Made by a program: the position numbers and the translations under genes. The notes beneath the pieces were generated by a model. The model did no database searches and was not told where the DNA came from. It saw nothing but the letters and a program-made list of their open reading frames with translations. From IMG/VR virus record IMGVR_UViG_3300030012_002984, positions 1 to 32,556 of that record: a stretch of DNA of 32,556 bases. One strand, given 5' to 3'. Below, piece after piece: positions 1 to 32,484 of this stretch (positions are counted from its first letter, which is position 1; each line of letters begins with the position of its first letter). Source of the stretch: a virus.

Positions 1-128
1 TCGAGGGCGTCGAACAAGGTCTTATGACACTAGACAAAATATATGTAGCTCTAGTCAATGGAGATGGAATCTATCCGGATCTAGACGAAGAGGAAGGACC
101 TTCAAACCTGGACCACATCGACGTATGA
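1..128 (+). CDS. C-terminal part of small early protein (diverged copy of gene at 32140-32424)
   Basis: The reading frame is open from base 3 and stops at TGA 126-128. It encodes 41 residues, EGVEQGLMTLDKI to NLDHIDV, that match the last 41 residues of the complete 94-residue gene at 32140-32424 with one visible change (L for M). The 5' part lies outside the window. Against the other copy eight codons differ, and seven of those changes are synonymous, so the protein has been under selection in both copies. The C-terminus is strongly acidic (DLDEEEGPSNLDHIDV). I recognise no domain. The stop codon sits in the loop of a perfect hairpin. Confidence 0.8.
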   Translation, partial: EGVEQGLMTLDKIYVALVNGDGIYPDLDEEEGPSNLDHIDV

Positions 129-140
129 TTCGATGTGGTC
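111..140 (+). other. Conserved stop-codon hairpin, copy 1
   Basis: GACCACATCG (111-120) pairs perfectly with CGATGTGGTC (131-140) around a 10-base loop that carries the TGA stop codon. No U-tract follows, so it does not look like an intrinsic terminator. The second copy at 32407-32436 keeps all 10 pairs although two positions in each arm region have changed together. Role unknown: it may affect translation termination, protect the mRNA, or control the downstream Gp88-like gene, whose start is 45 bases away. Confidence 0.85.
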
Positions 141-163
141 ACACCACACCACACCACACCACA
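141..163 (+). repeat. ACACC pentanucleotide tract (4 copies)
   Basis: Four tandem ACACC units plus ACA lie between the hairpin and the ribosome binding site of the Gp88-like gene. The other copy of this locus has six units. The tract is purine/C only and would be unstructured in RNA. Its length differs between copies, as expected for slippage. Confidence 0.9.
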
Positions 164-184
164 AAATAAACAGGAAAAATAATC

Positions 185-919
185 ATGCCTAATAGCGCAC
201 CCAAACACACACATATTATTGACGTACTTGTACAATCAAGTACACGCAACAAAAAAACCGGCAACATCCCGACGGTTATCGTCGGACAAAATACAAAAGA
301 CATCAAAAAATCTTGTCTTGATTCAGGCTGTCCTTTACTCTCTGAAAAGATGGGAGGAGCTGGACAGTATAAACAGCACGGACTAAAGCCGTGTTATGCT
401 CATGCCTCCTCCGTGTCGTGGGCTACCAAATCAATCCTGAAAGCCATTGACAAAGGAAACAAGACGATCAAAGACTACTCGATCAGAGAAGGATTCAGAA
501 TGTCGTCACGTCATGCAAGGTTCTTTCGTTTATCCTCTATAGGTGATTGTTCTTCTCTCTCTCGCAAGGTTATTGATAAGCTCGTGAAGACAGGAAAAGA
601 ATATAACTTGAAACCTCTAGGATATACAGCAGGATGGCGTCAACGACCCGACCTAAAAGACATCGTACTTGCTAGCAATATCACAATGGAAGACGCGGAC
701 ACAGCAGTATCGAAAGGCTGGCGTGCTACTTGTCAAGTCCCGAAAGGAACAAAGAAACGATTCATCACTCCTGCAGGGAATGAAGGAATCGTTTGCCCTG
801 AACAGACACAGAAGAGCACGACACCACGAAACAAAATAACGTGTAACACTTGCGGACTATGCAGTGAAGGCAACCAACACAAAACCAGATTCAAAGTCAT
901 TGGATTTATCAATCACTAA
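185..919 (+). CDS. Gp88/DUF7227-like Cys-rich phage protein
   Basis: A 244-residue protein starting at ATG 185, behind AACAGGA. The pattern resembles the Gp88-like family found in many phages: an N-terminal Cys cluster (C44, C49, C70 in a PCYAH motif), a central RLSSIGDCSSLSRKVIDKLV stretch, a GYTAGWRQRPDL stretch, and a C-terminal cluster with C204 in VCPEQ and C220-x2-C223-x2-C226 (CNTCGLC). The Cys spacing suggests bound metal, zinc or perhaps an iron-sulfur cluster; this is inference. The molecular role of the family is not known to me. It is the first long gene of the early module, and its start region is duplicated at the right end of the window. The family assignment rests on memory of motif layout, without a search. 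Confidence 0.7.
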   Translation: MPNSAPKHTHIIDVLVQSSTRNKKTGNIPTVIVGQNTKDIKKSCLDSGCPLLSEKMGGAGQYKQHGLKPCYAHASSVSWATKSILKAIDKGNKTIKDYSIREGFRMSSRHARFFRLSSIGDCSSLSRKVIDKLVKTGKEYNLKPLGYTAGWRQRPDLKDIVLASNITMEDADTAVSKGWRATCQVPKGTKKRFITPAGNEGIVCPEQTQKSTTPRNKITCNTCGLCSEGNQHKTRFKVIGFINH

Positions 920-933
920 CAGGAGAACACACC

Positions 934-1212
934 ATGAAAACCATAACTCTTATAGGCTATCGTCGAACACTCCATCAAGACATACACTGTCCTGATGGAG
1001 TCACGCGTAGTTTTTACACATACCGAATCGCCTTTCAAAATGGAAAAGGCAAGATCTACCATGCATCAGTATTGTATTGGTACAAGCGAGACATGCACAG
1101 TGTCTCATGCTGTAGCTGTCCTGCTTGGGACTACAAGCGAGTATGCTATCACCGACAAGCAATCATGCAAGATCCAAAGCTACAAGAACTTATCAAAGGA
1201 GACAAGCAATGA
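934..1212 (+). CDS. Small SWIM zinc-finger protein
   Basis: A 92-residue protein with AACAGGAGAACACACC before ATG 934. The C-terminal half carries CxC-x8-CxH: C60, C62, C71 and H73 in SCCSCPAWDYKRVCYH. This fits the SWIM zinc finger (CxCxnCxH), a module that binds DNA or protein partners, for example in Rad51-paralogue partners and some helicases. The N-terminal half (residues 1-55) looks beta-rich and may be a small wing on which the finger sits. It lies in the early operon between the Gp88-like gene and small unknown genes, and its TGA overlaps the next ATG (ATGA). A DNA-binding or adaptor role in early takeover is an inference. Confidence 0.75.
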   Translation: MKTITLIGYRRTLHQDIHCPDGVTRSFYTYRIAFQNGKGKIYHASVLYWYKRDMHSVSCCSCPAWDYKRVCYHRQAIMQDPKLQELIKGDKQ

Positions 1213-1850: not shown

Positions 1851-2084
1851 ATGACTATCTATATCCTAATGATTGCATGGGAACCATCGCTGCATGGTGT
1901 TGAGTACACGCCTTTCTTCGAAGAGGACAAGGCATACGAACACTTGGTAGATCGACTCGTGGAAGAGAACATCATCAGCCATGGGGACCTAGCATTCCAA
2001 TCTATTCAACAACTAACAGATTCCCATGGTATCTCATGGGATATAACCGTCTCAAAAATGGAGGAGACATGCCCAAAAAACTAA
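1851..2084 (+). CDS. Early hypothetical protein, 77 aa
   Basis: ATG 1851 follows the previous stop by one base, with GGAGTTAAC as ribosome binding site. The protein is acidic (MTIYILMIAWEPSLHG..., EEDKAYEHLVDRLVEEN). Its layout of a short beta-strand, then a helix with acidic residues, then DITVSKMEE is typical of small phage anti-host or accessory proteins, but I recognise no family. The last 16 bases overlap the start of the ribbon-helix-helix gene. Confidence 0.65.
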   Translation: MTIYILMIAWEPSLHGVEYTPFFEEDKAYEHLVDRLVEENIISHGDLAFQSIQQLTDSHGISWDITVSKMEETCPKN

Positions 2085-2308
2085 AGACATACCCGATGAG
2101 TATGGACCCAGAAGTATACAAGCTAGTGCGAGCTATCGCAGAAGCACAGTCAATCACGATGAAGGAAGTGTTTCGCGTTGCGCTCGGGCTGTATGTAGCT
2201 CACAACGTGCACGCTTTCGACGTCATAAAAAAAGGGGACAGGCCACCACAGCCAGTCCCCAACACCATAAAAACTACTAGCCAAGAACAGGAAAAGAACA
2301 ATGACTAG
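2069..2308 (+). CDS. Ribbon-helix-helix (CopG/Arc-like) small DNA-binding protein, putative
   Basis: Start chosen at ATG 2069 (MPKKLKTYPMSMD), which has GGAGGAGAC directly upstream; an earlier in-frame ATG at 2036 lacks a good site. The 79-residue protein has a basic N-terminal beta-strand (KKLKTYPMSMDPEVYKLV) followed by two helices (EVYKLVRAIAEAQ, TMKEVFRVALGLYVAH), the order of a ribbon-helix-helix fold. The tail (residues 50-79) is polar and disordered. Such proteins bind DNA as dimers and often repress early promoters, so it is one candidate for the protein that reads the palindromes at 31423-31808. It overlaps the next gene by 8 bases. A leftward terminator is embedded in its coding sequence. 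Confidence 0.55.
   Translation: MPKKLKTYPMSMDPEVYKLVRAIAEAQSITMKEVFRVALGLYVAHNVHAFDVIKKGDRPPQPVPNTIKTTSQEQEKNND
2227..2260 (-). terminator. Leftward intrinsic terminator inside the RHH gene
   Basis: GGGGAC-A-GGC (2234-2243) pairs with GCC-A-GTCCCC (2251-2260): nine pairs, one A/A mismatch, 7-base loop. Seven A residues (2227-2233) lie on its left, so a leftward transcript would end the hairpin with seven U. On the plus strand no U-tract follows, so rightward early transcription is not expected to stop. It would block leftward (antisense) transcripts that leak from the late module. Confidence 0.7.
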
Positions 2309-4627: not shown

Positions 4628-4660
4628 AAAGCCACAGCATATACGTTGTGGCTTTGTTTT
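4628..4660. terminator. Bidirectional intrinsic terminator after primase-helicase
   Basis: AAAGCCACA (4628-4636) pairs perfectly with TGTGGCTTT (4647-4655) around a 10-base loop. GTTTT follows on the plus strand, and TTTTGTTC follows on the minus strand. It ends the rightward early operon 8 bases after its last stop. It can also stop leftward late transcripts that pass 5304 without another visible terminator. Confidence 0.85.
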
Positions 4661-8545: not shown

Positions 8546-8931
8546 CATACTCTCCACGTTATTTTTATCTGCCTGACATTCAAAGTACCAGTATCTGTTT
8601 TTATCCACACATGACTGGGCCATGTATCCGCTACATCAATCTCAATCTTTATAATGCTCGATGTCTTTGTTGGTGTTGTAACGCCCAATGACATACCAAC
8701 CTGCCTATCTCCAATGATACACATGTCACCATAACTATCTTCTGTTATGCGAACTGTCAGTGCATTGGCACCAGACAATGTGTCACCATAGATTGTTACT
8801 GCACTCAATGTACCTCCAAGTGTAGGCATTGTGTTTTGTATTTCCCTAATCGTAGGTATGATGTCAAAAACCTGCCAGTCTGTATTTATAGGCGCATTAT
8901 AATACTGTACAAGTTTTCTAGGAGTGGTCAT
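8545..8931 (-). CDS. Putative virion protein, 128 aa
   Basis: ATG 8931 overlaps the stop of the giant virion gene (ATGA), with AAAGGAATCGCA before it. The sequence is beta-rich with many T and I residues (LSAVTIYGDTLSGANALTVR, WIKTDTGTLNVRQIKITWRV). I recognise no family. Position between the ejection proteins and the fibre, on the same transcript, supports a structural role, perhaps a fibre adaptor. Confidence 0.6.
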   Translation of the reverse strand: MTTPRKLVQYYNAPINTDWQVFDIIPTIREIQNTMPTLGGTLSAVTIYGDTLSGANALTVRITEDSYGDMCIIGDRQVGMSLGVTTPTKTSSIIKIEIDVADTWPSHVWIKTDTGTLNVRQIKITWRV

Positions 8932-11900
8932 TGCGATTCCTTTTCAGCCTGATCCAATGCTCTGTTTACACGATTTAGCTGATATATTATGTTCTTCTCA
9001 GCTGGCGCACCCCTTAGTGGTGTCACCAAACCTAACTGATACAATGACCATAATATAGCACTTTGTGTGTCTCCTTCAAATACTTCTGAGATTTTTCCAC
9101 CCTGTATTGTGCCAGTCTTTAAATACCTACTTTCAAAAGGTATAACCTTTTCTCCTTCTTTAGTTTGGATTCGATCTCCACGCTTCGATGATAACATCTC
9201 TGCCTTGGTCAAATCTCTTTTAAAACGTTGACCAAACAACCGTATAAATAAATCATTAACTGGTATACCCTCTTCTTGTGCTAATAAATCCAATCCCTGA
9301 TTTATAAGTACACCAGCCGTAGTTAAAGCAGCAGTTTCATCTATCAAATATTGTTTATATCCTGGCAATCCTTTTTCCCCATCCGGAAAATCATACAATA
9401 TACCTGCTTCTGTTTCCTCTGTACCCATAGTCAACGTCTTTCCTCCCATTCTGCGTCTAGGTATCAAACCATATCGCTGTATATAATACTCAAGATTACC
9501 TGATGCTTCTGCATTATACTGTAAATAAGATGGGAAAGGTGGTATTCTTTCCGATGATCTTGCACGTTCATATTTAACAAAGGGAGAAACATATGGTTTT
9601 TGTTCCAACAATAGTAATCCCAAAAATGTTATTACTTCACTTGATTGATCAGCTACCAAAACTGTAGACATTAAATCTAACAACTGTACTTGAGGATTAG
9701 GTGGTCCACCAACTGTAATAGGATAACCATCCACATCACCTGCAAATATATTATAAACTCTGTTCAACTGTTGATTAGTATAATCATTATAATCTTTAGC
9801 CATCTGTCGATTCAATACATCTTGAGATCTTAACATTCTCAACGACAAAGATGGTTTACCTGTCATTACACCCTTGTATATAGCGTTGATCTGACTACTT
9901 ATCATTGTTCTTTGAAATGCATAAAACCAAATAAAGTTAGATACATATCTTTTTTCCTCAGGAGTCAAAATACTGTAATCCAACATTGACGACTTACCTG
10001 CTGTTACTGCTTCATCAACAGTATAGCCATTCCGTAAATACTCAACAAATACAATACGACGCAACTCACTATCTTGATACCTAGATAACTGTGTAAATAT
10101 ATTGTTTTGCGATGTGCGTGTATTCTCTAATATTTTTTTTCCTTTTTCATACAACCATGGAAAGTTACGCAAAAATGGTTGTTGTGATCTATACCTATTT
10201 AAACCTTGTTCATTTATACCCAACTGAATCAACATCTGATTAACTTCTGTATCAAAAAACTCTGCATCAGCTCGACTATATTCCATACCAGTTTCATTTA
10301 TTATTCGTCGTAACTCTCCTGCTGTATAATCTCTTTTGGCACCATCCTTTGCAAACACAACTACTTCTTCTGGGGATGCAAACCGTAACTTGTTTGCTGC
10401 TGATAAATCCCAAACATTAGATTTTCCCAACTTCCTCATAAACAGATTGAATGCTGACTTTACAGGAAGTTCTATACCCATATCAAAAGTTCTACCAACT
10501 ATTTTAGATACTGATGATAATCTCAAAGGAGCATTCAAAACAGTAGCACCAAGTATAAATGCAGCAGTAAAACGATTAAAACCAAAAAAACGAGTATTGG
10601 GAGCAAACTGACCACCCAACATTCCTGCTGTAGTCCAGCGTCTAAAAAGATTTAAAGTACCAAAAAAAGTATTAAAAGCCATTTGCAATAGTATTTGGTT
10701 TTTATTTATACCTTTTGCATCCTTTTTAAAGATTTGTTGTGCATATTTATTAAATGCCTGACTTTTAAACACACTATCAAAATACTTCGACTCAGTCATT
10801 TCAGTAATCAACTTCGCTCGTTCAGACAACTCTTGTCCATAAACTAAAGCCAAGTTTTGCTTACCTATCATCTTGATTCTTGGATTGATAGACTTCAATG
10901 CTTTTGATAATGTACTACCATTTAAACCATACATCGTAATACGATTTGTCACTTGCTGTATTTGTTGAGCAAAAAGAGAATCGGATAATGGGTCTTTACC
11001 TATACCTGTCAACTTGCCCAAGTATTCTACATTCATCGTCTTAATCAAACCAGGTAATGAACTTTTTATATCTTCAACTAATCTTTGTTTTTTTTCTATC
11101 AAAGATACATTTGCATCTTCTGCTGTTTTTAAATCTTCTAAGTTGTCAGTTACTCTTTTCAACACTTTTTGCAGTTGTTGATTTATATTATCAAAAGTCG
11201 AACTTTTAATAATAGGAGATTTATCTCCCTGTGCAACAATAACTGTACGCAAAAAAGAATCCATATCTATTGCAACAGTTTCTTCTAACACCATTTTGTT
11301 TAAATATTTCTGTAAAAACTTTTCTTGTGTTGACCTCGATGTATTTACCCAAACATCTTTCATCATTCCATCAAACAATATTTCCTTTACCTGATAAAGT
11401 ATAATATTTTTTAAATCCTCAGAAAAAATATTTGCTTTATCACCAGCCGATAAAGTATTACGTATACTCTCTTCAACTTTTGTACTTATTGACTGAACAG
11501 ACTTTAAACCAACCATACCCTCTTGGGTTCTTTTCATAGACAAAACTATATCTGGTTCACTTCTAGCAAACTTTGTAATAGCTTCTTGTGTATTTTGTAG
11601 CTTCTGTATACTTATCATTTTCTGTAAAACCGGAAGTACAAAGTTTTCATCACGAGAAAATATACCCTTCTTCAATCCATACTTATTTAATATGTCTCCA
11701 CCTGGTAGTGATCGTAAACCAGAAACTACTTCTTTTAATGTAGTAGGATTTATAGGCTGCAAGTTATTAGGTGCAAAAAATGGTTGTTCAGGATCTACTA
11801 CAATCAACTTTAATAGCTGATCTTCTTCTGTTACAAAATCTAACATCTTTGATGTAGTAATAACTTTTTTACCTGATAACTCAGGACTTACAAAAAAGCT

Positions 11901-14900
11901 TTTTAACACATCTTGCCATTGATTATATCGTATAAAACCTTCCTCATATATATACATATAATCAACTAAATCATCAATAACTGTAGCCAAATCATCATAA
12001 TCTAAGTCTTTAAAACCTACTGTTTCTTCAATAAAATCTTTTACTTTTTTATGACCAAACCTCTCCGATGCTGCCTGCAATGTTCTACGTTTGGCTGTTT
12101 CTTTGCTTTTAGATATCTGATCTTTACGTATCTTTTCAACATACTCATCAATCTTATTGTTTATCTTTGCTTCTTCTTCACTCAGCTTTTGTAAATCTTT
12201 CATTTCAGATTCTACTGCTGCTTTTACTTTCTTATCAAAGATTTCTTTTTGCTCTATTGCACGTGTTGTACGTATCTCTTGTTGCTTTTCTTTACGCTTT
12301 GCTACTATCTCTTGCTGCTTTGCCAATCGTTCTTCGTAAAACTTTTTTTGCTTTGCAATCTTCTCTACAATCTTTTGCTGCTTATTCTTTATCTTCTTTT
12401 TGCTAGACATTAAGTTAGCCAACGATGCACGCTGCTTTGTTGTCAAGTTCTCAATACTTACTTTTTGCTTCTCTAAAAGTTTTGCCAAGCTCTCTTCTTG
12501 AGCCTGTGTAAGTTTTGCAAAACTTTCTTCTTGTTGAGTTTTTATCTTTGATAAAGACTTTATCCTCTGTTGTTTTCTTTCTGCTCGTGCTTCTCGTTTC
12601 TGTTCGATTTTCTTTTGTAATCGAATCTTAAACTTTTGCTCATATGGACTATCGCCAACAAACTCTTGACGTGCAGTCGGTGACACTTGAGATATCTGTG
12701 GTTGATCTGCACGTATCGCCATACTCTTACGTGACGACCGTTCTAGCTCTACACCCAAGTCCATATATATTTTGCTTTGATCATTGATAACTTCTGCTGG
12801 ATTATCTGATAATCTTGATTTTTGTGTTATGTTTGCAATCACTTGTTTAGGTGCAGAATCAGCAGCCAACTGTACACTTCGCTCAAAACGTTTAAATGAT
12901 GCAGTTGCTGCATCATCAAAAAACTTAATATCTTCTATGGGTTGACCTTGCAATACACGTATTGCATTTGCAATAGCTTTACCTTTTATTGCACCTGTCG
13001 GCTTTTTACCACGTGCTTGTACTACCAAAGTATCACCAGCTGCTATACCTGCATCTGCTATATCTGATTGTAATCCTGCTGTTCGTAATCTTGTGCCACC
13101 TAATATATCAAGAGCCAACTGTGCACCAACAGTGTCTGATAACTCTGCTCTTTCAAGCGCAGTAAAAGCTTTACCATTATCTAGTTTTTCAACTATACTT
13201 GGAGCCAACTGTACTCCACGTTGTTTTAAAAAACCTCGTAAATAACTTAACCCATCTGGTGTAAACTCATATACTTCTTGTACACCTTCTAGTCTAGGTT
13301 TAAAATCTAATAACTGTCGATGTTCTTCTAAATACTTTGTATATTCTTTTGTTGGTCTGCCTGAAACTGTATGTATTTTGCTAGAAGGTACTGCAACATT
13401 GTCCGATATATAAACCAAATCAACTGGCATTGTACGCAAAAGATTATCTCGGATTAACTGTGCTGCACTAGATCGTATAGCATCATATATTACTTCAGCT
13501 GAGTTACGTATCTCTTCTGGTATTTGTTCGTATACTTTATTTTTTTGTAAAACATCAAATGATGATCGTAAAGTTTTTTGTTGTTTTGCTGATAATGGAC
13601 CTTGTTTTGATCGTTTCAAAAGCCCTCTAGCTTTTGACCATGCTGCTGTTACTGCATTTTTATTTTGTTGTACTACTACCTTTTCAACTTCATCTAAAGG
13701 TATATTACGCAATCTTGATACAGCTATTCCACGATTTATTAAATCTGGTGCTACGCTAGGTTTGCCACCCTTTTCGATTACTTCTATTGTTTCCTTTGCT
13801 ACTTTATCTACTCCACGTAATAATGGATTAACTCCAGTAGCTCCTGGTAGATTACCCTGCAAAATCGGTTCTACTGAAGGTACAGACCTTGTTTGTAAAT
13901 ATCTACTTTGCGGTATTTTTTGCGATAACTTTTTTGCATCTTCAAAAGTACTTGTTGTAGATAAAAATCTATCTCGAACCTTAGATCCTGCAACTATATC
14001 AGCACCTATCTCGGATGCCTTATAAGATACAGTATGTGGCTCCAAAAAATCATTCGCTTTTATTTTTATACGAGTAAGATTTTTACCTTCCTTTGTTGAT
14101 CGCAAAGATTTAAAAGCATTTTCTAGTGCCTTACGTTGACCTGCAAATAGTATACCTCTAGCTATTGCCTTGGCTGGCTTTACAACAACACCCATAGGTA
14201 CTACAGGTACTGCAAACTCTGGCATCAATGTAGTAACTATATTACCAAAACTGCCCTGTACTGTTGGATCCAATGGATTATAGTTTGTTTCTGGAGGTAG
14301 TGACTGAGCTCCCAGTTGCGAAAATAATCCTTGACCTATAATCATATTAGTCAAAGCCTGACCCAAAGGACTTTTCATTTCTGTCTTTTCATATCCTGCA
14401 CCTTTCCGTGTAGCAATCGGTGCAAGGTTTTCTTTCATCGTATCCGATACAAACTGACTAACAAATGGCTGTAAATATGTAGGCAATGCAGACGAAGCTG
14501 TACTTGCAATAATAGATCTACCTTTATCCGTTTGAGCAAAATCATTTACCCAATCTAATGCTGGAGCTGCAAATGCCGATGTCACATTTAACTGACGAAA
14601 ACCTGTAGCCAATCCAGTTTCAACAATACCTGCTTCAAGATAAGGAGATTCTGTTATAAATAAATCTTGTACTTTTTCTTTACCCCTCTCTCCTAAACCA
14701 TATACAACACCATCTGGTGTGACTGGCGTTGATCCAGTTCTACGAAAAAACTCTCCTTCTTTTTCTTTTATTGCTTCTTCTATTTCTGTATCTGTCTTAC
14801 CTTGTTTTTTAAAAAATCTTCGGAGATCTTGTTCTCTTTGTTTTTTTGAAGATTCCTTTATAGCCTCCATTTGTTTTACTTGATCAGGAGTAGCAATCCG

Positions 14901-15578
14901 TTGTGGTTTTAAAGCTTCTATAAATAACTCAGCTTCTCCTGATGGTAAAATCGTTTTATCACCAACACCTATTTTTTCTAATAAATCATCTACACCCAAA
15001 ATATCCAATCCAGCAATGATTGCATTTTGTAACACAGGATTTCCAGTTACTGCTCCGGCAATGGTTGATTCTATCGGTAAATCTGATACATCAAGACCTT
15101 GAGCCTCTCGCATTTTTCCTGTCCTTTTATCAAAAACAAGACCTCTTTTAGGATCTAATATCCTAGACATACCCTTTGATACTGTATATGGATCACGAAA
15201 CTGTTTTGTACCAAACTGAAGTGACTCCATATCTTTCTGAAACTGACGAGTTTTTTCTTGTTCCAGTTGACGTGCATCTTCAACTGTAAGTTTACGACCC
15301 AGTTCTTCTTCTCGTTTTTTTACATCTTCAAGTTTTAACTCATACGGTACAGTATAATCACCATATCCACGCAGTTTACTTTCTGTTTCTGCCTGTAAAC
15401 CTCTTTCTGTAAACTGAAAATCACGAGGCTCTATCTGTGTCTCAGCTGCAAGCTGGTTTTGTAACTTCTTATTCAGTACTTCATACTCAACAAAATAGTC
15501 ATCCAACTCTATTTCTTTCATCATCAAACGATATTTCAAATCATTTATCTGTTGTCGTATCTCTGCTGCTGTAGCCAT
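8928..15578 (-). CDS. Giant internal virion/ejection-type protein, 2216 aa
   Basis: One uninterrupted frame fills a fifth of the genome, with ATG 15578 behind TAGGTGTGTA. Residues 1-130 are helical and charged. About 985-1160 is a long coiled coil rich in K, E, Q and R (AKLTQAQEESLAKLLEKQK, AKQQEIVAKRKEKQQEI). Around residue 1870 is DYSILTPEEKRYVSNFIWFY, which resembles a segment I remember near the C-terminus of very large virion proteins in other phages. I found no transglycosylase, peptidase or RNA polymerase motif. Size, position after two smaller helical virion proteins and coiled-coil content fit an ejected internal protein (as T7 gp16 is) that may line the DNA channel into the host. 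It ends in an ATGA overlap with the next gene. Confidence 0.75.
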   Translation of the reverse strand: MATAAEIRQQINDLKYRLMMKEIELDDYFVEYEVLNKKLQNQLAAETQIEPRDFQFTERGLQAETESKLRGYGDYTVPYELKLEDVKKREEELGRKLTVEDARQLEQEKTRQFQKDMESLQFGTKQFRDPYTVSKGMSRILDPKRGLVFDKRTGKMREAQGLDVSDLPIESTIAGAVTGNPVLQNAIIAGLDILGVDDLLEKIGVGDKTILPSGEAELFIEALKPQRIATPDQVKQMEAIKESSKKQREQDLRRFFKKQGKTDTEIEEAIKEKEGEFFRRTGSTPVTPDGVVYGLGERGKEKVQDLFITESPYLEAGIVETGLATGFRQLNVTSAFAAPALDWVNDFAQTDKGRSIIASTASSALPTYLQPFVSQFVSDTMKENLAPIATRKGAGYEKTEMKSPLGQALTNMIIGQGLFSQLGAQSLPPETNYNPLDPTVQGSFGNIVTTLMPEFAVPVVPMGVVVKPAKAIARGILFAGQRKALENAFKSLRSTKEGKNLTRIKIKANDFLEPHTVSYKASEIGADIVAGSKVRDRFLSTTSTFEDAKKLSQKIPQSRYLQTRSVPSVEPILQGNLPGATGVNPLLRGVDKVAKETIEVIEKGGKPSVAPDLINRGIAVSRLRNIPLDEVEKVVVQQNKNAVTAAWSKARGLLKRSKQGPLSAKQQKTLRSSFDVLQKNKVYEQIPEEIRNSAEVIYDAIRSSAAQLIRDNLLRTMPVDLVYISDNVAVPSSKIHTVSGRPTKEYTKYLEEHRQLLDFKPRLEGVQEVYEFTPDGLSYLRGFLKQRGVQLAPSIVEKLDNGKAFTALERAELSDTVGAQLALDILGGTRLRTAGLQSDIADAGIAAGDTLVVQARGKKPTGAIKGKAIANAIRVLQGQPIEDIKFFDDAATASFKRFERSVQLAADSAPKQVIANITQKSRLSDNPAEVINDQSKIYMDLGVELERSSRKSMAIRADQPQISQVSPTARQEFVGDSPYEQKFKIRLQKKIEQKREARAERKQQRIKSLSKIKTQQEESFAKLTQAQEESLAKLLEKQKVSIENLTTKQRASLANLMSSKKKIKNKQQKIVEKIAKQKKFYEERLAKQQEIVAKRKEKQQEIRTTRAIEQKEIFDKKVKAAVESEMKDLQKLSEEEAKINNKIDEYVEKIRKDQISKSKETAKRRTLQAASERFGHKKVKDFIEETVGFKDLDYDDLATVIDDLVDYMYIYEEGFIRYNQWQDVLKSFFVSPELSGKKVITTSKMLDFVTEEDQLLKLIVVDPEQPFFAPNNLQPINPTTLKEVVSGLRSLPGGDILNKYGLKKGIFSRDENFVLPVLQKMISIQKLQNTQEAITKFARSEPDIVLSMKRTQEGMVGLKSVQSISTKVEESIRNTLSAGDKANIFSEDLKNIILYQVKEILFDGMMKDVWVNTSRSTQEKFLQKYLNKMVLEETVAIDMDSFLRTVIVAQGDKSPIIKSSTFDNINQQLQKVLKRVTDNLEDLKTAEDANVSLIEKKQRLVEDIKSSLPGLIKTMNVEYLGKLTGIGKDPLSDSLFAQQIQQVTNRITMYGLNGSTLSKALKSINPRIKMIGKQNLALVYGQELSERAKLITEMTESKYFDSVFKSQAFNKYAQQIFKKDAKGINKNQILLQMAFNTFFGTLNLFRRWTTAGMLGGQFAPNTRFFGFNRFTAAFILGATVLNAPLRLSSVSKIVGRTFDMGIELPVKSAFNLFMRKLGKSNVWDLSAANKLRFASPEEVVVFAKDGAKRDYTAGELRRIINETGMEYSRADAEFFDTEVNQMLIQLGINEQGLNRYRSQQPFLRNFPWLYEKGKKILENTRTSQNNIFTQLSRYQDSELRRIVFVEYLRNGYTVDEAVTAGKSSMLDYSILTPEEKRYVSNFIWFYAFQRTMISSQINAIYKGVMTGKPSLSLRMLRSQDVLNRQMAKDYNDYTNQQLNRVYNIFAGDVDGYPITVGGPPNPQVQLLDLMSTVLVADQSSEVITFLGLLLLEQKPYVSPFVKYERARSSERIPPFPSYLQYNAEASGNLEYYIQRYGLIPRRRMGGKTLTMGTEETEAGILYDFPDGEKGLPGYKQYLIDETAALTTAGVLINQGLDLLAQEEGIPVNDLFIRLFGQRFKRDLTKAEMLSSKRGDRIQTKEGEKVIPFESRYLKTGTIQGGKISEVFEGDTQSAILWSLYQLGLVTPLRGAPAEKNIIYQLNRVNRALDQAEKESQ

Positions 15579-31712: not shown

Positions 31713-31781
31713 AACAATATAAAACATAGTAAAAGTTTATTGTTTGCAATATAGATTATTATGTAGACAGCATAAGAGATA

Positions 31782-31787
31782 TATGAT
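31782..31787 (+). promoter_or_regulatory. Candidate rightward early -10 (TATGAT) next to O3
   Basis: TATGAT lies 50 bases before the first early start codon. The -35 position is poor (TTATGT at 17 bases). The palindrome O3 begins five bases after the -10 element, so it would cover the transcription start. Confidence 0.4.
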
Positions 31788-31791
31788 AGTA

Positions 31792-31808
31792 TTATGGTAC
31801 TACCATAA
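31792..31808. promoter_or_regulatory. Operator-like palindrome O3
   Basis: TTATGGTACTACCATAA is a perfect 17-base inverted repeat with a central C, the same length and outer TTATG/CATAA as O1. It sits just before the early genes, in the position where a repressor blocks transcription. In RNA it would form an 8-pair hairpin with a one-base centre, which is too tight for a stable loop, so a DNA site is more likely. Confidence 0.75.
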
Positions 31809-31837: not shown

Positions 31838-31963
31838 ATGAAAATCTCAACTATCACAATCATCACTATTTATATATGTGCCTGCATATATGATACTAAC
31901 TATTGCGCATTGCCAGTTCTCCCTATCCTTGCGATAGGGATGATGAAAGAACTAACAGAATAA
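31838..31963 (+). CDS. Short early peptide, 41 aa
   Basis: ATG 31838 follows AACAGGAAAACACC, the same leader used by the other early genes. The peptide (MKISTITIITIYICACIYDT...) is hydrophobic for the first 18 residues and has three Cys; it could be a small membrane or secreted peptide. The coding sequence contains a perfect hairpin, CCCTATC (31921-31927) with GATAGGG (31933-31939). No family recognised. It is the first gene behind the candidate early promoter. Confidence 0.5.
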   Translation: MKISTITIITIYICACIYDTNYCALPVLPILAIGMMKELTE

Positions 31964-31988: not shown

Positions 31989-32138
31989 ATGACATTTACT
32001 CAAAAGATAAAGGACATTGAAAAAAAATATAAAGTCTTAGTTTATATAGACTGTGGCCAATATGTAAGGCTATCATGCTTACCAATGAACACACACGCAA
32101 GATCATGTCACATATTTTATGTAAAAAAAGGAGAATAG
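31989..32138 (+). CDS. Short early protein, 49 aa
   Basis: ATG 31989 lies behind AACAGG and a run of nine A. The protein (MTFTQKIKDIEKKYKVLVYI...) has a basic helical start and a beta-like middle, with Cys at 22, 30 and 40. It ends one base before the next start. The distance from AGG to ATG is long, so translation may be weak. No family recognised. Confidence 0.5.
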   Translation: MTFTQKIKDIEKKYKVLVYIDCGQYVRLSCLPMNTHARSCHIFYVKKGE

Positions 32139-32139
32139 A

Positions 32140-32424
32140 ATGAAAGTATATAAAAAATGGATTGAACAACTTGCACTTGATCGCGAGTATGCAAAGACAG
32201 ACGCACAAAAAGAGGAGTATGATGAGTGGATTCTGTGGCTCGAGCTACAGCTATCGAATAATCGAACCGCTCCGATTTACTGCCATCACTGGAGATTAGA
32301 AGGAGTTGAACAAGGTATGATGACACTAGACAAAATCTATGTAGCTCTAGTCAATGGAGATGGAATCTATCCGGATCTAGACGAAGAGGAAGGACCATCA
32401 AACTTGGACCACATAGACGTATAG
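32140..32424 (+). CDS. Early hypothetical protein, 94 aa (complete copy)
   Basis: ATG 32140 follows AAGGAGAATAGA. Residues 1-40 are a charged helix (YKKWIEQLALDREYAKTDAQ, then EEYDEWILWLELQL). Residues 55-94 are GVEQGMMTLDKIYVALVNGD and an acidic tail ending in NLDHIDV. No family recognised. The C-terminal 41 residues are repeated at 1-128 with mainly synonymous changes. The stop is TAG here and TGA there. It leads through a hairpin and an ACACC tract to the Gp88-like gene. Confidence 0.75.
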   Translation: MKVYKKWIEQLALDREYAKTDAQKEEYDEWILWLELQLSNNRTAPIYCHHWRLEGVEQGMMTLDKIYVALVNGDGIYPDLDEEEGPSNLDHIDV

Positions 32425-32436
32425 ATCTATGTGGTC
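32407..32436 (+). other. Conserved stop-codon hairpin, copy 2
   Basis: GACCACATAG (32407-32416) pairs perfectly with CTATGTGGTC (32427-32436). Compared with copy 1, C-to-A in the left arm is matched by G-to-T in the right arm, so the pair is kept. The stop codon TAG is in the 10-base loop. No U-tract follows. Confidence 0.85.
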
Positions 32437-32469
32437 ACACCACACCACACCACACCACACCACACCACA
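32437..32469 (+). repeat. ACACC pentanucleotide tract (6 copies)
   Basis: Six ACACC units plus ACA, against four in copy 1, between the hairpin and the AACAGGA ribosome binding site of the Gp88-like gene. Confidence 0.9.
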
Positions 32470-32484
32470 ACAGGAAAAATAATC

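Follow-up and report, generated by a model that had tools for sequence, protein, structure and literature searches.

Hairpins followed by an unstructured, A/C-rich leader lie about 55 nt ahead of early-gene start codons at two junctions in an uncultivated phage and its relatives, and their arms differ in sequence while the pairing and the position are kept. The hairpin may be an early-gene leader module that would insulate the ribosome landing site and/or protect processed mRNA, a reading to which a probability of roughly 45% is assigned.

The window, i.e., the whole stretch of DNA analysed, is a 32,556-bp record (IMG/VR IMGVR_UViG_3300030012_002984) with early genes on the plus strand and late genes on the minus strand. 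Its terminase has at most about 27% identity to those of named phages or isolates, and its relatives in IMG/VR comprise 61 contigs; a terminase scan of genome_contigs gave no match. A late protein of 2216 aa (8928-15578) had no PHROGs or Pfam match. The features of the first junction are as follows.

111-140, plus strand: intercistronic hairpin, copy 1, GACCACATCGA-CGTATGAT-TCGATGTGGTC (sequence, folding)
126-128, plus strand: TGA stop of the small upstream gene, within the hairpin loop (sequence)
141-184, plus strand: A/C-rich unstructured leader of copy 1, an (ACACC)n array followed by AGGA at 172-175 (folding energy 0)
185-919, plus strand: gene with a Gp88-like / DUF7227 C-terminal domain, downstream of the hairpin
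32140-32424, plus strand: complete small upstream gene, 94 aa, ending ...LDHIDV* (without known family)
32407-32436, plus strand: hairpin copy 2 at the other contig end, GACCACATAGA-CGTATAGA-TCTATGTGGTC (sequence, folding)
32437-32484, plus strand: A/C-rich leader of copy 2 (sequence)

Both copies form a perfect stem around an 8-nt loop that contains the stop codon (TAG at 32422-32424 in copy 2), as an earlier note on this DNA had described; at 11 bp, including the closing A-T, the stem is one pair longer than the 10 it had counted. The change from C-G to A-T in both arms and the switch from TGA to TAG had also been read correctly. The 30-mers fold at -17.3 (copy 1) and -16.2 kcal/mol (copy 2), none of 200 dinucleotide shuffles folded as well, and perfect stems of at least 10 bp arise by chance zero to two times per shuffled 32-kb genome. 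The 5' arm consists of the last codons of the small upstream gene, for which neither a single-protein search nor INPHARED searches (with DNA and with the small gene) returned a match.

Positions 3-256 of the window match its last 258 bases at 235 of 258 positions (91%), and the contig ends overlap: one end holds the whole upstream small gene and a truncated Gp88-like gene, and the other the reverse. Because the hairpin copies sit on these overlapping ends, they most likely represent two strain versions of a single locus, in a genome that is circularly permuted; of the earlier "two diverged copies", both hairpins are thus present, but not as separate loci. The contig ends of a relative, G003, likewise overlap inexactly at the Gp88-like gene. 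At the end of that gene (L013), a CCCCCTTTAAAGGGGG hairpin without a U-tract lies past the stop codon at both ends.

The same junction was found with a hairpin in two relatives. In G001 (L001), whose Gp88-like protein is 91% identical, the hairpin is GACCATATC-gatctgt-GATATGGTC, and in G004 (L009) it is GACCACATCGA-tatttgat-TCGATGTGGTC, yet ahead of a different downstream gene. Across the four sequences compared (both window copies, G001, and G004), all 41 scorable cells are paired, versus 12-42% in slid controls, with two double-sided changes (C-G to A-U in copy 2 and C-G to U-A in G001) and no one-sided change; the expected covariation in relatives is thus present, but weak at n=4, as is the shuffle control (41/500). 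The 5'-arm changes are synonymous within the conserved ending LDHID. Related phages lacking the stem had been named as evidence against the fold, and this was borne out in part: a comparable stem was not found at the junction in G009, where the small gene does have a homolog, or in G008, where a different small gene is present. Nor was a comparable perfect stem found at the junction in G002 and G003, which carry other genes at this position.

A second such hairpin occurs further along this early operon, at the junction between a gene for a small ribbon-helix-helix (RHH)-like protein and the helicase-primase gene.

2069-2308, plus strand: RHH-like small gene, with homologs that carry 3'-end hairpins (RHH match below cutoff)
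2234-2260, plus strand: second hairpin, within the 3' coding end of the RHH-like gene; its centre is at -53.5 nt relative to the start of the helicase-primase gene (2301)
2261-2300, plus strand: A/C-rich leader, unstructured, ahead of the helicase-primase gene

Nearly every homolog of the RHH-like gene that was found carries a hairpin near its 3' end, although the arms are unrelated among many of them (CTGCCAGAGA/TCTCTGGCAG, TACCTCACAC/GTGTGAGGTA, and ACCACTACTG/CAGTAGTGGT). In the window, pair 6 of the stem is C-G versus T-A (U-A) in relatives. Five homologs could be aligned, with the stem entirely within coding sequence; 96% of their cells are paired, and the covariation score is 0.280 versus 0.096 in shuffles, of which 1 in 500 scored as high. 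Two pairs covary at third codon positions with three pair types each (GCT/CCA, GCC/CCG, GCG/CCC; and GGC/CAG, GGT/CAA, GGG/CAC). Additionally, among ten coding RHH hairpins, eight have a better fold than 98% or more of their synonymous recodings: the number of recodings, out of 4000, that fold as well is 3 for the window, 0 for L171, L170, and L178, 1 for L181, 11 for L177, 27 for L182, and 45 for L183. The hairpins of L180 (165/4000) and L179 (639/4000) are only weakly unusual among their recodings, or not at all. On these comparisons, the RHH-helicase junction is stronger evidence for a kept fold than the small-gene junction, and the idea that the fold matters is better supported than it was from the first reading.

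The position of the hairpin follows the downstream gene. For the two junctions together (19 hairpins), the centre is found at -54.7 ± 5.2 nt relative to the downstream start versus -32 ± 27 nt relative to the upstream stop, although the homologs are related and a test statistic therefore overstates certainty. The distance to the upstream stop ranges from +3.5 to -62 nt, and since the hairpin tracks the downstream start instead, the stop-codon control suggested in the earlier note is unlikely. The short intergenic gap accounts for the stop codon being within the loop, where its presence is incidental. Readthrough of the stop into the Gp88-like gene was also considered and rejected, as the genes are in frame in copy 2 but out of frame in copy 1 and G001, and the arrangement is thus not conserved. 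From the end of the stem to the downstream ATG there are 34-51 nt (mean 40.2, sd 4.9, n=19), and this leader is 51% A, 30% C, 10% G, and 9% T, with a folding energy of about 0.

The assignment of the hairpin to early genes is upheld by a folding peak at -55 in early genes that is absent in late genes. Across the whole clade, 31 of 151 nonredundant early starts have folding energies of -9 kcal/mol or lower at -55 (6.6 in shuffles), versus 16 of 314 late starts. With the two junctions removed, the peak persists in 22 of 140 early starts (5.6 in shuffles) versus 16 of 314 late starts (Fisher p=0.00036), a part of these hairpins being ordinary terminators (e.g., 4628-4655). Similarly, 17 long perfect stems were observed on the early strand versus 2.0 expected in 115 kb, and 15 on the late strand versus 6.25 expected in 587 kb.

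Further hairpins, and a likely promoter, are located elsewhere in the early region.

969-1001, plus strand: hairpin early in the coding sequence of the gene at 934-1212
31764-31792, plus strand: likely sigma70-type early promoter, TAGACA-17-TAGTAT (consensus match only)
31792-31808, plus strand: small hairpin about the transcription start, TTATGGT-ACT-ACCATAA (sequence)
31918-31943, plus strand: further hairpin, spanning -71 to -46 relative to the start at 31989

The hairpin at 31792-31808 is followed by an A/C-rich leader, a Shine-Dalgarno sequence (SD), and an ATG at 31838; the layout is that of the junctions, and it probably marks a true 5' end. This order of hairpin, leader, SD, and ATG is seen after likely early promoters both in the window and in four relatives. 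The hairpin at 969-1001 shows paired changes relative to G001 and has a G-U pair in L190, but it falls outside the -55 rule; its counterpart in G001 has 15 perfect pairs, and none of 4000 synonymous recodings folds as well. Also in G001, a palindromic stretch, AAGGCGCGCGCATAGCGCGCAAGG, is present twice close to gene ends past the Gp88-like gene (L017/L011), once with the stop TAG in mid-palindrome. A promoter inside the hairpin itself (TATGAT in the loop of copy 1) was rejected, as it is not conserved and promoter matches are not above those in shuffles. Hairpin promoters of the N4 type were likewise set aside: hairpins of the same genome do not share a sequence, and the operon is preceded by sigma70-like promoters.

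Arrays of (CACCA)n were rejected as a part of the hairpin element, since they occur without a hairpin in many unrelated phages and in relatives that lack the stem. In such unrelated phages (L086, L090, L098, L100, L106, L107, L117, L118, L122, and others), the arrays separate a stop codon from the next SD, and most have no hairpin; in L086, a 12-bp hairpin stands ahead of the array. An alternative stem, formed by the 3' arm with the first array unit, would fit the window and G001, two sequences being too few for a comparison. In the distant relatives G035 (L142) and G041 (L146), several early genes of one genome are preceded by a recurring two-hairpin leader, in the order GC-rich hairpin, CTTTTA, small hairpin with loop TATTT, TCTACAATCTACA, SD, and ATG. 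The stem of the small hairpin covaries (ACTC/GAGT, GTTC/GAAC, CTTC/GAAG), 93.8% of cells are paired, and the covariation score is 0.393 versus 0.166 in shuffles (0/500 as high); the leader has no Rfam match. No Rfam match at or above the gathering score was obtained in the window, L001, L009, L027, L086, G035, or G041.

Several known systems resemble these junctions. The RNase III sites of T7 early mRNA are hairpins between the early genes of a polycistronic phage message, and an RNase III site has either about 20 bp of double-stranded stem or two stems stacked on each other; the 9-12 bp stems found here are below the usual length of an RNase III substrate, and the hairpins do not qualify as RNase III processing sites. 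Lambda nut sites also place an early-operon hairpin ahead of A/C-rich RNA, but here the hairpin sequences differ within one genome and boxA is not above chance, with five one-mismatch matches in the window versus 5.7 expected and none near the hairpin. A transcription attenuator or Rho-linked element, in which the hairpin causes a pause and the C-rich, G-poor leader serves as a rut site, would be consistent with the C-rich arrays downstream of the stem in the window and with the CTTTTA that follows a hairpin before several early genes of G035 and G041. However, leaders at the RHH junction are richer in A than in C, there is no boxA nearby, and a U-tract is absent in the window's clade, where the hairpins are not called terminator-like, such that this explanation is very improbable. 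In the window, ACACCACACC rather than a U-tract directly follows the stem, which is missing from lists of terminator-like structures, in agreement with the earlier view that it is not a normal intrinsic terminator. Another candidate is a DNA-level palindrome, serving as the operator of an early regulator or as a recombination or replication site. The pairs are mostly Watson-Crick, a neighbouring gene encodes the RHH-like protein (a DNA-binding fold, with a match below cutoff), and G004 carries the same hairpin ahead of a different gene, but hairpins within one genome lack a common sequence, some contain G-U pairs, and a DNA site would not be expected to show either the strand bias or the fixed distance to start codons; this, too, is very doubtful.

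Inverted repeats could also be neutral, with polymerase template switching both creating and repairing palindromes that have no RNA function. Template switching is able to create and maintain hairpins and can alter both arms in a single event (PMC8794818); hence, although the fold is kept by paired changes, in two pairs at the small-gene junction and more in the second hairpin, such changes are not the direct proof that they had been taken for. The five changes clustered within 14 nt between copies 1 and 2, as well as the additional long stems at scattered early-gene sites, would fit this mechanism. In contrast, nearly all RHH homologs share a similar hairpin position despite unrelated arms, the stem changes between L182 and L183 are all at third codon positions with a density not above that of the upstream flank, G-U pairs occur in L180 and L190, and the hairpins are biased to the early strand and to -55. 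A purely mutational origin is thus rather improbable. It is somewhat less improbable, while still unlikely, that the hairpin is a decay barrier for the upstream gene, with the stem halting 3' exonucleases that attack the message once it has been cleaved, or terminated by Rho, within the next gene, as in malE-malF, puf, and galE. This is a known intercistronic kind that includes a hairpin near the galE stop (PMC9239205), the malE-malF, puf, and galE hairpins likewise lack a U-tract at a cistron junction, and the stem at the small-gene junction is indeed placed at the stop codon. However, the phage hairpins follow the downstream start and not the end of the upstream gene, and the stem of the RHH junction is buried in coding sequence by up to 62 nt, so that an mRNA ending there would have no stop codon.

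The leader-module reading is preferred because the hairpin lies just outside the expected ribosome footprint, the A/C-rich leader is open, and the same layout follows likely early promoters. A structural element of the polycistronic early mRNA would delimit the next cistron's leader on its upstream side, in the order hairpin, about 40 nt of unstructured A/C-rich RNA, SD, and ATG. Placed about 55 nt ahead of the start, the hairpin may block pairing of the upstream coding sequence with the landing site. Once the message was cut upstream, it could act as a 5'-protective stem-loop, and after likely early promoters it would form the 5' end of the transcript. At papBA-type junctions, such protective structures are found within the end of the upstream coding sequence (PMC5927463). 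The phage hairpins share this placement of a stable stem a short distance before the next cistron's start (-54.7, sd 5.2 nt, n=19, and the clade profile), but they belong to a phage early operon, their arm sequence is not conserved, and RNase cleavage is only putative. They also resemble the standby-site module, in which a single hairpin precedes a single-stranded proximal site and the SD; the leaders here are 34-51 nt long and fold with an energy near 0. Insulation may nonetheless be weak, because with a proximal site of this length the standby-site model expects a hairpin this far upstream to impose no penalty and to have no effect on initiation (PMC3936740). Overall, the hairpins are best classed with an already known kind, intercistronic leader hairpins, with a putative mechanism.

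If this reading is correct, early start codons in an uncultivated phage group are preceded, at a fixed distance, by an RNA whose shape is conserved while its sequence is not. Such shape-only conservation would escape sequence-based searches for RNA families, including Rfam, and folding profiles relative to start codons, compared between early and late genes, would be a way to find similar modules in other phages. The group would also provide a natural case in which selection on RNA shape may be told apart from maintenance by template switching.
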